Positions 25,466-30,305 of a stretch of 64,000 nt of DNA are shown here, one piece after another (position 1 is the first letter of the stretch; every line of letters starts with the position of its first letter). This DNA is from Candidatus Zixiibacteriota bacterium (GTDB lineage Bacteria; Zixibacteria; MSB-5A5; GN15; JAAZOE01), in assembly GCA_030668485.1 (NCBI GenBank), contig DAOUTW010000001.1, positions 62,001 through 126,000 of the forward strand, written 5' to 3'. The position numbers were made by a program, and so were the translations under genes. Below the pieces are notes generated by a model that was not told the origin of the DNA, did not search any database, and worked only from the letters and a program-made list of their open reading frames with translations.

Positions 25466-26614
25466 CTAATTCTCCGTACCTTCATTAAATTCAAACTCTT
25501 CCCGACCATAAAACCTTCGGCTGGGCCAGTGCTTTTGAATTCGACTATCAAAACCGTAAGGACAATTTGAGCAGTTTAATTGCAGGCAGTCTATTATTGC
25601 GGCTTTATGTTTGTCACCGAATAATATGTCCTTCAACCGATTTTGATTCAGGTTTCCCAGCGGATCTTGAGCCGGGCAAAGTTGTACAGCTCCATCCGGT
25701 CTAACCCGAACCATCATATATCGGTCACAGGGGACATTCATTCCGGGTTTCATTATCAGCCAGTCCGGAATTGAGCGCAAACCCATCAAGGAATGTCCTA
25801 TGATACTTGGATATCTGTTTTTTAGTTCAATCACTTCACGGATAATTGAAATAATGCCCGCGCGGTCTTCAGGGCGAAATTGCAATTTACCTTCAGGTCC
25901 TTTATTCAGGTAAGGGGCAGCATAATGAACAGGATTAATATCGAAGCGATTAATCTTGTATTTTACGGCAAAATCCCAGGCATTCTCCAAAGCCTCACTG
26001 TTGCATGTCAGACGACTTAATAACCAATGCATGCCAAAGACTATTTCCGTCCCATACCTGCCTCGTAGATGGTCCATTGATTTTGTCAGCCTTAGATACA
26101 TACCGTCTCTTTGAACATACCGATCATATTGCCTGCCAGTACCATAAAATCCCATGCTTATCCTTCGCGCTCCGGCCGAGTATAGATCGTCAATTTTCTC
26201 TTTAAGGAGGGTACCATTAGTTATAATCAATATCGGTAGCTCCAGATTTGTCGCATGTTCTATCATCTTTGACAGGTCGGGATGCAAAAGCGGCTCGCCT
26301 CCGCTGAATACCACATTCCAAAAACCCAGGGCCTTGGCATCTGAAAGTATTCCTTTGACAATATCGAGAGAGATCATCTTACCCGGCAAATAATCCCTTC
26401 CGTAGTTGCACCCCAGGCACCTTTGGCTGCAACTAGAGATAAGAGATAAGCCCAGAGTTCTTGGTTTGAGTTTAATCATAGAAGAATAGTGTGTTCCAAG
26501 AGACTGTCTGAGCATACTGAGCAAATAATCACAGTTTAAGGCAGAGTTTTTCAAACGACTGTGTTTTTGCAGGAATGGCATAAGATGTCTACGAGCAGTG
26601 GTTGAAATACCCAT
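25466..26614 (-). CDS. Radical SAM protein with SPASM-like C-terminal cysteines
   Basis: The 382-residue protein has the radical SAM motif CSQRCLGC (CxxxCxxC, about residues 62-69), the FSGGEPLLHP loop (about 100) and ITNGTLL strand. It ends with a cysteine-rich region (CDRYMMV, QLCPAQDPLGNL, CLQLNCSNCPYG) like the SPASM/twitch domains that hold auxiliary iron-sulfur clusters. Such proteins modify peptides or act as anaerobic maturases. No precursor peptide or partner enzyme is recognisable next door, so the substrate is unknown. It sits in an AT-richer accessory region beside the repeats and the transposon, suggesting acquired DNA. Confidence 0.8.
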   Translation of the reverse strand: MGISTTARRHLMPFLQKHSRLKNSALNCDYLLSMLRQSLGTHYSSMIKLKPRTLGLSLISSCSQRCLGCNYGRDYLPGKMISLDIVKGILSDAKALGFWNVVFSGGEPLLHPDLSKMIEHATNLELPILIITNGTLLKEKIDDLYSAGARRISMGFYGTGRQYDRYVQRDGMYLRLTKSMDHLRGRYGTEIVFGMHWLLSRLTCNSEALENAWDFAVKYKINRFDINPVHYAAPYLNKGPEGKLQFRPEDRAGIISIIREVIELKNRYPSIIGHSLMGLRSIPDWLIMKPGMNVPCDRYMMVRVRPDGAVQLCPAQDPLGNLNQNRLKDILFGDKHKAAIIDCLQLNCSNCPYGFDSRIQKHWPSRRFYGREEFEFNEGTEN

Positions 26615-27146: not shown

Positions 27147-27166
27147 GATTTCTCGGTAGTGGGTCA
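27147..27166 (+). repeat. Left transposon end: 8-bp target duplication plus 12-bp terminal inverted repeat
   Basis: GATTTCTC (27147-27154) is followed by the terminal repeat GGTAGTGGGTCA (27155-27166). The same octamer lies immediately outside the opposite end at 30298-30305, and the 12-mer is perfectly inverted at 30286-30297. Beyond 12 bp the ends continue to match imperfectly (xTTTxAA). Confidence 0.9.
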
Positions 27167-27168
27167 CT

Positions 27169-28011
27169 TTAAATTTTCCTCTCTTTTTCCTCGACCAGCT
27201 TAACAATATCCTCAATCTCCCATAATTTCTTAGTGACTCCGGCTTCCATAGCCGGGGTTACTCTTAGGGTTCGGTGAATTCTAACAAAGTTATAGTACAT
27301 AAAATGTAGGGCTATCGCATATTCAAGGTTTTGAATCTTCTTTGAAAAGCCGTTTGTTAAACGAGTAAAACGCCTCATACTCATTCGCATAGTCAAATTT
27401 TGACGTTCCACGAAGGAAGTAGAGACGTGCTTTTTGTCAGGCTTACCGATAAGCGATTGCCTTCTTGCCCCGATGCACATTGGTGGGCTGTATCTGCCCG
27501 CTTCTGTCTTTTCTGTGCCGTAGAGCTTAATGAGCATTGCATAGTCAATATCATTGCCAAATACCTCGTCAACCGCATCTAAGTAGGCTCTAAGGCCGTC
27601 AGTTGTCAATTGTACCTTATTGGCGAGCCTTTCTTTGACATCGGTTAGAAATATTCTGGCGTGATGAGCGTCACGTAAGCCGACAAACCAAGAGACGGCC
27701 AGCTTAGTATCGGAGTCAATAGCGACAAAGGTCCAGACATCGCCATAACCAAATTGACCCCTTTTATCTTCGGGAACATTCTTGGCTTTGGCATAGCAGT
27801 AACTCCAAATTTCATCAGCCTGTATCCGCTTACAGTTTAGATTGCGCAAAGTCTTGTCTTGATATTCGGCGCAAACTGATCCGACATCGGCCAAGAGCTT
27901 GACTATAGTATTCTTGGCAACTCCTGTCATTCTAACAGTAGAGCGGATGGAGTTTCCCTCTACTAAGGCCGCTAAGACCTGAACTCTTTTTTCTCTGCTT
28001 AGCTTTCTCAT
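27169..28011 (-). CDS. IS1-family DDE transposase
   Basis: The 280-residue protein has an N-terminal helix-turn-helix region (MRKLSREKRVQVLAALVEGN, then SIRSTVRMTGVAKNTIVKLL) and a DDE-type catalytic core: Asp in IQADEIWSY, Asp in LTTDGLRAY and Glu in FVERQNLTMR. The domain order and the closing NFVRIHRTLRVTPAMEAGV resemble single-frame proteins usually filed under the IS1 family. The stop codon is 3 nt from the left terminal repeat. It looks intact, so the element may be active. A strong promoter lies just upstream. Confidence 0.88.
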   Translation of the reverse strand: MRKLSREKRVQVLAALVEGNSIRSTVRMTGVAKNTIVKLLADVGSVCAEYQDKTLRNLNCKRIQADEIWSYCYAKAKNVPEDKRGQFGYGDVWTFVAIDSDTKLAVSWFVGLRDAHHARIFLTDVKERLANKVQLTTDGLRAYLDAVDEVFGNDIDYAMLIKLYGTEKTEAGRYSPPMCIGARRQSLIGKPDKKHVSTSFVERQNLTMRMSMRRFTRLTNGFSKKIQNLEYAIALHFMYYNFVRIHRTLRVTPAMEAGVTKKLWEIEDIVKLVEEKERKI

Positions 28012-28019
28012 AATGACTT

Positions 28020-28070
28020 AATATACGTGACCGCTCAGGCATTGTCAAGTAAAATATGCATGACCGCTCA
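28020..28070 (-). promoter_or_regulatory. Transposase promoter with paired direct-repeat operator
   Basis: Read on the minus strand, TTGACA (28043-28048), a 17-nt spacer and TATATT (28020-28025) form a near-consensus promoter just before the transposase start. The decamer TGACCGCTCA occurs twice in the same direction, at 28029-28038 inside the spacer and at 28061-28070 upstream of the -35 box. The copies are 32 bp apart, about three helical turns. A 14-bp inverted repeat (28041-28054 / 28084-28097) overlaps the -35 box. Autoregulation of transposition is inferred. Confidence 0.55.
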
Positions 28071-28128
28071 AGAAAAATACAATTTTTACTTGACAATACC
28101 TTGTATTGAGTCGATATTAAAAAGGAAT

Positions 28129-28212
28129 GGGTACGGCGGGACTCGAACCCGCTTGGTGGTCAGCACCCATAGCTTGCAAAGCTATTGCGTCTACCTGTTT
28201 CGCCACGTACCC
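28129..28212 (-). tRNA. Class II tRNA with leucine-type body and UGC (alanine) anticodon
   Basis: The minus strand folds perfectly. The acceptor is GGGTACG/CGTACCC (7 bp). The D arm is GCG/CGC with the leucine-type GGTAGACGC segment. The anticodon stem ATAGC/GCTAT has loop TTTGCAA, so the anticodon is UGC. The long variable arm is GGTG/CACC. The T arm is GCGGG/CCCGC with loop TTCGAGT. The discriminator is A73 and no CCA is encoded. The long variable arm, D arm and A73 are leucine-tRNA features. The G3:U70 pair that alanyl-tRNA synthetase needs is absent (G3:C70). Charging with leucine and reading of GCA as leucine is therefore predicted, but untested. Confidence 0.85.
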
Positions 28213-28232
28213 ATGACCTTTTTGTTTTTTCT

Positions 28233-28300
28233 GGAGCCAGCCGGATTCGAACCGGCGTCAATCAGGTGCAAACCCTGTTGACGTCACCCAGACTGGCCCC
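28233..28300 (-). tRNA. Shortened tRNA-like structure
   Basis: This lies 20 nt upstream of the preceding tRNA on the same strand. It has a 7-bp acceptor (GGGGCCA/TGGCTCC, one G-U) and a canonical T arm (GCCGG-TTCGAAT-CCGGC) with discriminator A. It is only 68 nt long. The best remaining fold is a 3-bp D hairpin (GTC/GAC) and an extended anticodon arm (GTCAA-CAGG / CCTG-A-TTGAC, one bulged A) with loop GTTTGCA and no variable arm. If the loop is read canonically the anticodon is UUG, with an unusual C37. It could be a degenerate tRNA, a tRNA mimic or an unconventional working tRNA. Confidence 0.5.
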
Positions 28301-28317
28301 ATATCGAAGTTAAGAGA

Positions 28318-28342
28318 CTCAGGCTGTGCAAACCAGCCTGAG
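28318..28342. other. 8-bp perfect hairpin whose loop copies the tRNA-like anticodon loop
   Basis: CTCAGGCT (28318-28325) and AGCCTGAG (28335-28342) flank a 9-nt loop, GTGCAAACC. On the minus strand the loop reads GGTTTGCAC, nearly the same as the anticodon loop of the tRNA-like structure 18 nt away. It immediately follows the stop of the 28348-28764 gene and could be its terminator. However, the better T tract (TTTTCTT) lies on the plus-strand side. Confidence 0.5.
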
Positions 28343-28347
28343 TTTTC

Positions 28348-28764
28348 TTATGTACTTATTATTTTCCATCTCGCAAAGCGTGTACTTCCAGTTTTCTGAA
28401 ATCGCCTACCCTTATGTTTCCAAAGCGTATTTCCTAATGTTGAAGAAGAAAGGGTCTTGCCGAATTTTTTAGCATATCGATCTCTGATTTCTTGATTGCC
28501 TATAGCATATCCAGCATCTTTCAATATCCAAGAGATACCCTCAGCCACTGTCATATTCTCAATATCTTCTGGGGTCAATTCCTCTGACACATTATCCACG
28601 ATAAGGACTTGATTCCCCTCTGGTAATTGTGATGAGAGTTCCTGGAGCTTGTGCAGACGAGCTTGTTGCGCATCAATAGCCCTGTCTACGATGCGGCGAA
28701 TTTCTGGCCAACTCTCCTCTCCGAGCAGGTCAACCAACGCTTGCAAGAGTTCTTTCTTATCCAT
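28348..28764 (-). CDS. Hypothetical protein with a winged-helix-like C-terminal half
   Basis: I chose the ATG at 28764 (MDKKELLQALVDLLGEE) because GAGG lies 6 nt upstream; a start 12 nt earlier is possible. The 138-residue protein has an acidic helical N-terminal half. The C-terminal half (MTVAEGISWILKDAGYAIG, then NQEIRDRYAKKFGKTLSSST and LWKHKGRRFQKTG) resembles the winged-helix layout of HARE-HTH-type domains. DNA or RNA binding is suggested but unproven. It is a transposon passenger on the transposase strand, directly upstream of the tRNA-like pair. Confidence 0.55.
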   Translation of the reverse strand: MDKKELLQALVDLLGEESWPEIRRIVDRAIDAQQARLHKLQELSSQLPEGNQVLIVDNVSEELTPEDIENMTVAEGISWILKDAGYAIGNQEIRDRYAKKFGKTLSSSTLGNTLWKHKGRRFQKTGSTRFARWKIIST

Positions 28765-28797
28765 CAATATCCTCAATTCAATTTCTGTTCAGGGAAT

Positions 28798-28826
28798 ATA
28801 GTAAGGAAAAGCTGAATACTTGTCAA
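28798..28826 (-). promoter_or_regulatory. Promoter for the winged-helix-like passenger gene
   Basis: On the minus strand TTGACA (28821-28826), a 17-nt spacer and TACTAT (28798-28803) form a plausible sigma-70 promoter about 35 nt before the start codon at 28764. Transcripts from here could run on through the two tRNA-like genes. Confidence 0.5.
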
Positions 28827-28992
28827 GCCCTATCTCCTTTTTATTATCACTTTATTCTCCTTTAAATTTAATTATAAAGGGAGAAGAACTAAAAACGAGA
28901 GGGGATAGATGTTGTTTCAAGAGGGGTAGTTAGGTGATTCAATACTTATTATGCCTGTAAGAGGCTATACCACTATACTTTAGAAACACATG

Positions 28993-29256
28993 TTATGGTT
29001 TTTTCTTCCACCTTGCTTTGGCCGCCTTGCTCGCGGCCTCTGACCGCTCTTCTGGAGTCATTTTTTTTGCCCTTGCTGGCCCGCCCTTTTTACCACCAAG
29101 ACGGCCTAAGGCAACTGCTGCCGGATTCTTGCCCTCGTCTTCCGGCTTTGACTCTTCGACAGACTCTTCTGGCTTCGGATTAGTAGCTTGATTGGCTACC
29201 GTACTGGCCAGTTCGTTAATATCGAGCTTTTTCTTTTTGCTTGACCGCTTTTGCAT
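28993..29256 (-). CDS. Small basic protein with GRLGGKKGGPARAKKM motif
   Basis: The 87-residue protein has a lysine-rich start (MQKRSSKKKKLD), an acidic linker (KPEESVEESKPEDEGK) and a basic C-terminal motif (VALGRLGGKKGGPARAKKM, then TPEERSEAASKAAKARWKKK). This motif recurs in small bacterial proteins that I know only as uncharacterised or histone-H1-like. Nucleic-acid binding is likely from charge alone. TTGACA at 29286-29291 with TATCTT at 29263-29268 would start transcription almost at the ATG, so the message may be nearly leaderless. It is a transposon passenger. Confidence 0.6.
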   Translation of the reverse strand: MQKRSSKKKKLDINELASTVANQATNPKPEESVEESKPEDEGKNPAAVALGRLGGKKGGPARAKKMTPEERSEAASKAAKARWKKKP

Positions 29257-29312
29257 ACCCCTAAGATATAAATGGTTTGAATATATGTCAAGGAAATAAA
29301 TTAGGGGAAGAC

Positions 29313-29349
29313 ATTCGTATAGGTATATATAATATATACCTATACGAAT
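29313..29349. promoter_or_regulatory. 37-nt near-perfect palindrome between divergent passenger genes
   Basis: Two 18-nt arms (each containing ATTCGTATAGG... inverted) flank a single central base with no mismatch. It lies between the divergent small basic protein gene and the HicB/HicA pair. Candidates are a dimeric or tetrameric repressor operator, such as an antitoxin site, or a recombination site of the transposon. The remainder of 29257-29507 holds no gene I can support. Confidence 0.6.
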
Positions 29350-29507
29350 AATTAAAATAATCGTTGCTTTTTTGCTTTTGAGACGTATAATTAGGGGATG
29401 AGTGCCGATAATAATACGGTAGTGTCCTAATCACATTTTGTTTTCAGGCTGGAGGCAAAGTTGACATCAGCCGGATTTACTTCACTTTTTGTTAATATGG
29501 CAACCAA

Positions 29508-29957
29508 ATGAAACCGATGAAAAGAAAAGATAAAGCACAGGGCATATTCGTTGGGAAGAACATGCAGAAGGGTAAGTCTAAGCCCGAATTTACTATTTTC
29601 GGATATGTGAAGCCTGAAGACAAACATTGGATTGCGGTATGTGTTAATATGTGTCTTGTCGGCCAAGGGAAAAATCCAAAAGAGGCTCTCGAAAAGCTTG
29701 TTGAGTCGGCATCTTCATATATACAGGCATTGAAACATGATTATCCGCGCAAATGGAAATCAAAATTGGAGTGTGAATCGCCCCCGGAATTTATAAAAGA
29801 ATTTAACGAAATACTTAATCAACTTAAGCCTTTATTTGATTCTATGGCCGAGCAAACAGCAAAGAAAAGAGCCGTAAGCCCTCCGATGCCTATTCTTAAA
29901 CCTAATATGTTACCGGGGAATATATTTGTCCAACCGATTTCCGCAAATTACGCCTAA
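29508..29957 (+). CDS. HicB-like antitoxin
   Basis: The 149-residue protein contains the HicB partial RNase H-like fold: IFGYVKPEDKHWIAVCVNMCLVGQG, where EDKHWIAVCVN corresponds to the usual D-x-GYWVA-x-P strand. A KNPKEALEKLVESA helix follows. The long C-terminal tail (residues about 75-149) shows no obvious ribbon-helix-helix or HTH. Antitoxins of this family bind and neutralise the HicA RNase. The gene overlaps the toxin-like gene by 32 nt, with the antitoxin first, the reverse of the more common hicA-hicB order. Confidence 0.65.
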   Translation: MKPMKRKDKAQGIFVGKNMQKGKSKPEFTIFGYVKPEDKHWIAVCVNMCLVGQGKNPKEALEKLVESASSYIQALKHDYPRKWKSKLECESPPEFIKEFNEILNQLKPLFDSMAEQTAKKRAVSPPMPILKPNMLPGNIFVQPISANYA

Positions 29958-30225
29958 ACAAGCCGAAGATATCGCCAAAGCTAACGGTTGGGAAGATACT
30001 AAAGCTCCCCGAACAAGTGGAGATCACAATTATTATAGACGCCCTGATTTTGAATTACCCCTACAAATTGATATGGGAGAAACCGCATTCTACGAGAAAT
30101 ATATAAAAATGATGATGAAGAGAATGAATCTAACGAGAGAACAATTTTACGGTTCAACCAAAAAGATGGCTAAGAAGGCTGGCGTAAAATATATTTGCCC
30201 CAAGAAACAAGACGATAATGAATAA
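29926..30225 (+). CDS. HicA-like mRNA interferase toxin (TTG start)
   Basis: The 99-residue frame begins at TTG 29926 with CCGGGGAA 7 nt upstream, inside the 3' end of hicB. FPQITPKQAEDIAKANGW matches the HicA helix (normally P-x-LTG-x-E-ll-kaL-x-x-x-GF), and SGDHNYYRRPD places a histidine where HicA carries its catalytic one (G-SHH). The C-terminal extension (TREQFYGSTKKMAKKAGVKY) is longer than in most HicA proteins. Ribosome-dependent or free mRNA cleavage is expected from the family. It lies 60 nt from the right transposon end and may stabilise the element. Confidence 0.6.
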   Translation: MSNRFPQITPKQAEDIAKANGWEDTKAPRTSGDHNYYRRPDFELPLQIDMGETAFYEKYIKMMMKRMNLTREQFYGSTKKMAKKAGVKYICPKKQDDNE

Positions 30226-30285
30226 AATCTAAACTGACCTACTTTTCAAATTCCATGCCAGAAATGCCCCCAACTATTTTCAAAC

Positions 30286-30305
30286 TGACCCACTACCGAT
30301 TTCTC
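30286..30305 (-). repeat. Right transposon end: terminal inverted repeat plus 8-bp target duplication
   Basis: TGACCCACTACC (30286-30297) is the perfect inverse of the left end and is followed at once by the duplicated target GATTTCTC (30298-30305). Confidence 0.9.

Follow-up and report, generated by a model that had tools for sequence, protein, structure and literature searches.

An alanine anticodon on the leucine-type tRNA of an IS1-like transposon: a candidate for transposon-borne miscoding

A leucine-type transfer RNA (tRNA) with an alanine anticodon lies on an IS1-like transposon of a Candidatus Zixiibacteriota bacterium (assembly GCA_030668485.1, contig DAOUTW010000001.1, positions 62,001 to 126,000). 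This stretch of 64,000 nucleotides (nt) is called the window in the following, and all positions refer to it. Sequence comparison confirmed the RNA, termed tRNA B, as an intact leucine-type tRNA with the anticodon UGC, and a second tRNA-like RNA, termed RNA A, was found beside it. We favour the interpretation, with a probability of about 0.5, that the element carries a miscoding tRNA module, which would be transcribed, charged by leucyl-tRNA synthetase (LeuRS) and used to insert leucine at GCA codons, possibly with a toxin-like effect. The features that matter most for this interpretation are:

27147-27154 (unstranded): target-site duplication GATTTCTC, left copy, an exact repeat of the right copy
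27155-30297 (unstranded): IS1-like transposon of 3143 base pairs (bp), with the ends GGTAGTGGGTCACTTTAAA and, as inverted copy, GGTAGTGGGTCAGTTTGAAA, and a target duplication
28128-28212 (minus strand): tRNA B, with a leucine body and a long variable arm; the anticodon UGC is at 28176-28178, the discriminator is A73 and CCA is not encoded
28232-28300 (minus strand): tRNA-like RNA A, G3:U70, A73, minimal D arm, no variable loop, not a cloverleaf
30298-30305 (unstranded): target-site duplication GATTTCTC, right copy, an exact 8-bp repeat of the left copy

The two RNAs and their mobile address

ARAGORN reported a single tRNA in the window (28127-28213, minus strand, anticodon TGC), and covariance scoring, which a preliminary description of this DNA had proposed, returned a match to Rfam RF00005 at 28128-28212 on the minus strand (57.1 bits, E 1.1e-9). 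That description had placed the gene at 28129-28212; the 5' end at 28212 stands, whereas the end at A73 moves to 28128. All seven acceptor pairs and all five T-stem pairs are formed, and tRNA B does not look like a decayed pseudogene, an outcome the description had named as fatal to its reading.

To assign the body, it was compared with 140 reference tRNAs from five genomes by a nearest-neighbour method with the anticodon arm masked, which typed 123/140 references correctly in a leave-one-out trial with zero leucine errors. tRNA B scored 68.0 for leucine and 52.3 for the next isotype, and its four nearest references were all leucine tRNAs. Its D region agrees with that of the host tRNA-Leu(UAG) at 17 of 19 positions. 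Together with the long variable arm and the discriminator A73, this bears out the leucine-type architecture described before, and position 3:70 is G3:C70, so the alanine determinant G3:U70 is indeed missing. The anticodon loop context GCUUUGCAAGC is in turn that of the host tRNA-Ala(UGC), and the loop together with its closing pairs, GCTTTGCAAGC, is identical to it. Because the body is nearest to leucine tRNAs and the loop with its closing pairs matches tRNA-Ala(UGC), we regard tRNA B as a chimera of a leucine body and an alanine loop. The absence of an encoded CCA is normal, since host leucine tRNAs lack it as well, and the tRNA B region occurs only once in the genome.

The preliminary description had further assumed that LeuRS generally ignores the anticodon. 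For Escherichia coli this is supported, as LeuRS identity there depends on A73 but is independent of the anticodon (PMC9976931), and since tRNA B has A73, charging by LeuRS is the expected outcome.

RNA A and tRNA B adjoin each other between a 138-amino-acid passenger gene and the transposase gene. RNA A, which the preliminary description did not contain, is about 69 nt long and folds into a 7-bp acceptor, an approximately 9-bp arm carrying the loop GUUUGCA, and a T arm. G3:U70 and A73, the hallmarks of alanine identity, are present in 16/16 A-type RNAs of the transposon family, RNA A included, in which G1-C72 and G2-C71 are likewise invariant, whereas pairs 4 to 7 vary and are fully compensated. 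These pairs were counted directly; multiple alignments, which shifted the 5' ends of some rows, were excluded from the counts. The combination of invariant identity elements and compensated pairs is as expected if selection keeps recognition by alanyl-tRNA synthetase (AlaRS).

In its outline RNA A resembles the tRNA-like domain of transfer-messenger RNA (tmRNA) without the mRNA domain. Homologues matched both ends of the Rfam tmRNA model RF00023 (L033 with 37.0, L242 with 25.8 and L217 with 17.6 bits); RNA A of the window gave no match at the gathering score of 47 bits, and the best homologue is also below it. No mRNA-like domain with a tag reading frame is present in RNA A, with its roughly 69 nt and 7-nt loop. 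Each of the two clades of the transposon family has A-type homologues, some with loops centred on UUA or CUA.

The location on a mobile element, also claimed before, is borne out by inverted ends starting with GGTAGTGGGTCA at 27155 and 30297 and by the flanking duplication. GGTAGTG-type inverted ends and target duplications of 8-9 bp are characteristic of the IS1 family, and both were found for the window element. Like ends with target duplications of 8-10 bp were seen on five relatives (L042, L046, L144, L059 and L032).

Counterparts in related transposons

The collection of transposase relatives drew on genome contigs, viral contigs and the whole genomes of members of several phyla. A strict tRNA-fold finder was positive in 33/203 regions upstream of these transposases, compared with 0/203 shuffled regions and 1/185 downstream controls; the 33 regions contain some elements more than once, as duplicate loci. 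The tRNA-bearing elements come from several phyla and share one fixed position upstream of the transposase, and those with two identified ends (L042, L046, L032) have the tRNA between these ends. One of these, L032, is bounded by inverted repeats and has no recognisable transposase, yet it has kept both RNAs.

In about 15 B-type tRNAs with bodies other than glycine, body and anticodon disagree. Serine bodies carry UGC, UAU (twice) or GUA, leucine bodies carry UGC or UGG, and one long-arm body carries CGC. Short-arm bodies, which are probably arginine bodies by sequence, carry ACU or GCU, anticodons that would read the serine codons AGY. The glycine-bodied relatives have enlarged or shifted anticodon loops, for example CUUCCCAC. 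Such a tRNA with an enlarged loop is also found in a cultured organism, Tsuneonella rigui KCTC 42620, in four copies (L111, L112, L114 and L116). The recurrence of a mismatch between body and anticodon in independent related transposons went beyond the preliminary description and strengthens its reading.

Among 22 B-type tRNAs, 153/154 acceptor pairs and 107/110 T-stem pairs are formed, at a divergence of 15-30% from the nearest host-type tRNA. Since the match obtained for L111 in this comparison was a further copy of L111, no claim of recent capture was drawn from it. The loops of the 15 non-glycine tRNAs have U33 in 12/15 and a purine at position 37 in 15/15 cases, and most of them therefore look able to decode.

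Serine, leucine and alanine are the identities that depend least on the anticodon. Retained charging combined with altered decoding fits this property (for leucine, PMC9976931), and the transposon family as a whole appears to have preserved the charging identity of its tRNAs and changed what they decode.

Proposed function and competing explanations

According to our proposal, RNA A and tRNA B would be transcribed together with the upstream 138-amino-acid gene past an attenuating hairpin and then be cut out of the transcript by tRNA processing enzymes. Co-transcription is inferred because no promoter-like site was found between this gene and the tRNAs in a consensus search. Charging would follow the body, by LeuRS for tRNA B and by AlaRS for RNA A, and tRNA B would insert leucine at a fraction of the GCA alanine codons in competition with the host tRNA-Ala(UGC). 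As for the benefit to the transposon, we speculate about a toxin-like or stress effect on host translation, which the co-encoded protein might hold in check. This step is proposed because sister transposons carry protein toxin-antitoxin pairs in the same slot.

Only tentatively, and at odds somewhat below even, do we extend the proposal to the IS1-like family in several phyla. As an RNA equivalent of toxin-antitoxin passengers, this family would then carry tRNAs dedicated to breaking the code, of the missense, the +1 frameshift and possibly the nonsense type, with charging identity under selection and an altered anticodon, alongside a mini tRNA-Ala that resembles tmRNA.

Several observations weigh against the miscoding module. 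Immediately in front of the tRNAs a promoter-like site is missing, and a hairpin intervenes between them and the 138-amino-acid gene. The argument from U33 and purine 37 is somewhat weakened by the ancestry shared with normal tRNAs, and C33 in 3/15 non-glycine loops as well as poorly paired arms in some glycine-type tRNAs fit a relaxed constraint. The assignment to arginine is ambiguous for several short-arm bodies. Self-protection by avoidance of codons that would be misread was not supported, as the transposases contain 70 of these and 60.4 were expected. Finally, the toxin-like step is drawn by analogy with the slot in sister elements, and since a HicBA-like pair is also present in the window element, the tRNA is not a simple replacement of a toxin-antitoxin pair.

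The main rival explanation, which we consider unlikely, sees the tRNA-like folds as processing sites or insulators: cleavage by RNase P and 3' enzymes would leave the passenger mRNA with a 3' end protected by the hairpin and block read-through into the transposase, while the anticodon drifts. It accounts well for the acceptor and T stems, which are RNase P determinants, being the best-kept parts, for the hairpin just before the tRNA in most cases, for widely varying anticodons on partly odd arms and for A-type RNAs without a normal anticodon arm. Processing has no need, however, for the invariant G3:U70 and A73 of the A-type RNAs; it leaves the frequent U33 and purine 37 and the identity of the window loop with the host alanine loop unexplained, and the majority of related elements do without any tRNA.

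Host tRNAs caught by chance during transposition, with drifted anticodons and no function, are an improbable source of the pattern. Closely related elements hold different tRNAs, several loops have C33, and the B-type tRNA of L042 is mismatched in acceptor and T arm, all of which would suit decay; near-complete pairing at the divergence given above, alanine identity in every A-type RNA and recurrence at one position in elements of several phyla would not.

Smaller still is the chance that the RNAs, charged or uncharged, are decoys that absorb anticodon nucleases of host defence, prophages or toxins and so shield the element or its host. Varied anticodons on stable bodies, the commonness of tRNA-cutting toxins and the toxin-antitoxin pairs on sister elements are compatible with this idea, but a decoy should have the body of the tRNA that is cut and not a foreign one, no nuclease partner was identified, and PADLOC found no match within the element.

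The preliminary description had also considered a private code for the passenger genes. In the form weighed here, the tRNA would suppress a lesion in genes of the element so that correct products arise only in its presence; despite loops that look like those of classical missense, frameshift and nonsense suppressors and the use of such tRNAs by phages (PMC9523058, PMC10607447), this is very improbable, because GCA codons fall at positions with alanine as the consensus or an ordinary residue and not at leucine-expected sites (in the aligned transposase), and because second-clade transposases, examined for read-through by A-type RNAs with UUA- or CUA-like loops, have normal stops and no extension beyond them. 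The suggested count of GCA among alanine codons gave a slight excess and no clear bias (13/61 in the window element and 68/536 in neighbouring chromosomal genes, P 0.07).

The miscoding module has several parallels among known systems. Closest are the allo-tRNAs (Mukai et al. 2017, as reviewed in PMC7609411), which have serine or G3:U70 alanine identity and many non-cognate anticodons, UAU being the commonest, and which insert the amino acid of their body in E. coli. tRNA B shares the non-cognate anticodon and would, by analogy, work in the same way. It was nevertheless not filed as an allo-tRNA, because these have a 12-bp acceptor domain (8/4 or 9/3) and tRNA B is an ordinary cloverleaf with a 7-bp acceptor and a 5-bp T stem. 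In addition, its body is leucine, with serine, probably arginine, and glycine bodies in the relatives, and its address is a defined family of IS1-like transposons marked by inverted ends and target duplications.

Suppressor tRNAs of phages are likewise decoding-changing tRNAs on a mobile element, but they serve stop codons recoded in phage genes, whereas here sense codons would be concerned and no recoding turned up in the transposase. With the tRNA-like domain of tmRNA (RF00023), RNA A shares the G3:U70 acceptor, A73, the reduced D region and the T arm; it differs in having an arm of 9-10 bp with a 7-nt loop in place of the mRNA domain. Toxin-antitoxin genes are known from transposons, for instance of the Tn3 family (PMC7157771), and sister elements carry HigBA or RES-Xre pairs or other passengers in the same slot; the candidate active part here, in contrast, would be a tRNA.

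Classical laboratory missense and frameshift suppressors include leucine and serine bodies with foreign anticodons and glycine tRNAs whose loop has gained a C. The leucine, serine and glycine tRNAs of the transposon family mirror them, except that they occur in nature, on transposons, and have been retained for long.

Should the tRNAs prove active, mistranslation would be not only an error but also a trait that transposons carry and spread, and selection for miscoding could be tested on a natural example. The story of the allo-tRNAs would then extend from odd to ordinary cloverleafs with a clear mobile address, and the family would be a ready source of orthogonal suppressor tRNAs. A second RNA that deserves biochemical study is the mini-tRNA of alanine identity, in which G3:U70 is invariant over 16 diverged copies.

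Organisation of the window element

The remaining features of the element are:

27169-28011 (minus strand): transposase gene, 280 amino acids, IS1-related (annotated relatives; NCBIfam transpos_IS1 match below the cut-off)
28020-28048 (minus strand): transposase promoter, TTGACA-17-TATATT, with 8 nt between its end and the ATG; relatives share this layout
28317-28343 (minus strand): perfect 10-bp hairpin directly before the tRNAs
28348-28764 (minus strand): passenger gene, 138 amino acids, weakly winged-helix-like, directly upstream of hairpin and tRNAs
28798-28826 (minus strand): promoter-like site upstream of the 138-amino-acid gene, consensus match only
28993-29256 (minus strand): small basic passenger protein (NPAAVALGRLGGKKGG...), a common passenger of the transposon family
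29508-29957 (plus strand): passenger gene that resembles HicB by eye, unmatched in Pfam, NCBIfam and PADLOC
29926-30225 (plus strand): passenger gene that resembles HicA by eye, unmatched in Pfam, NCBIfam, PADLOC and the PDB sequences

On the minus strand the order is thus small basic gene, 138-amino-acid gene, hairpin, RNA A, tRNA B, transposase promoter and transposase, and the HicB/HicA-like pair occupies the opposite end of the element, on the plus strand. The transposase reached 49.6 bits against NCBIfam transpos_IS1, under the cut-off of 100 bits; its relatives are annotated as 'IS1 family transposase', and relatives with 75-82% identity occur in other genomes of the phylum. Judging from the promoter spacing, its transcript is probably leaderless. 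The promoter spacer contains a palindromic GAGCGGTCA motif that recurs in relatives, an inverted repeat (28037-28101) surrounds the promoter, and a second promoter-like site (28090-28118, plus strand) points into the tRNAs from the opposite side.

The 10-bp hairpin, which precedes the tRNA in most tRNA-bearing relatives, is probably a terminator or attenuator. Pairing between its loop and the anticodon loops was striking in single cases but was not supported by a permutation test (P = 0.27 for B, 0.52 for A). For the 138-amino-acid protein, Pfam gave sub-threshold matches only (HTH_33, E 0.063), and the predicted fold was of low confidence (predicted local distance difference test, pLDDT, 58) and without a match in PDB.

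DUF5343-like passengers were seen in seven relatives (L050, L214, L217, L228, L270, L032 and L033) and, among the elements examined, only in tRNA-bearing ones. DUF5343 as a general tRNA partner was rejected, as no tRNA-like fold was found near the six Pfam DUF5343 loci of the phylum, and no relatives turned up in plasmid or viral collections.

The small basic protein, with the pattern NPAAVALGRLGGxKGG, is a near-standard passenger of the family that occurs in 91 elements (e.g. L382-L385) and is annotated as 'histone H1' in one relative. An internal IS1-type end, GGTAGTGTCCTAATCAC, at 29418 is of second-clade style and borders the HicBA-like pair; the window element may be a fusion of two elements. 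Just outside the element, a gene for a radical SAM/SPASM protein is located at 25466-26614 on the minus strand.
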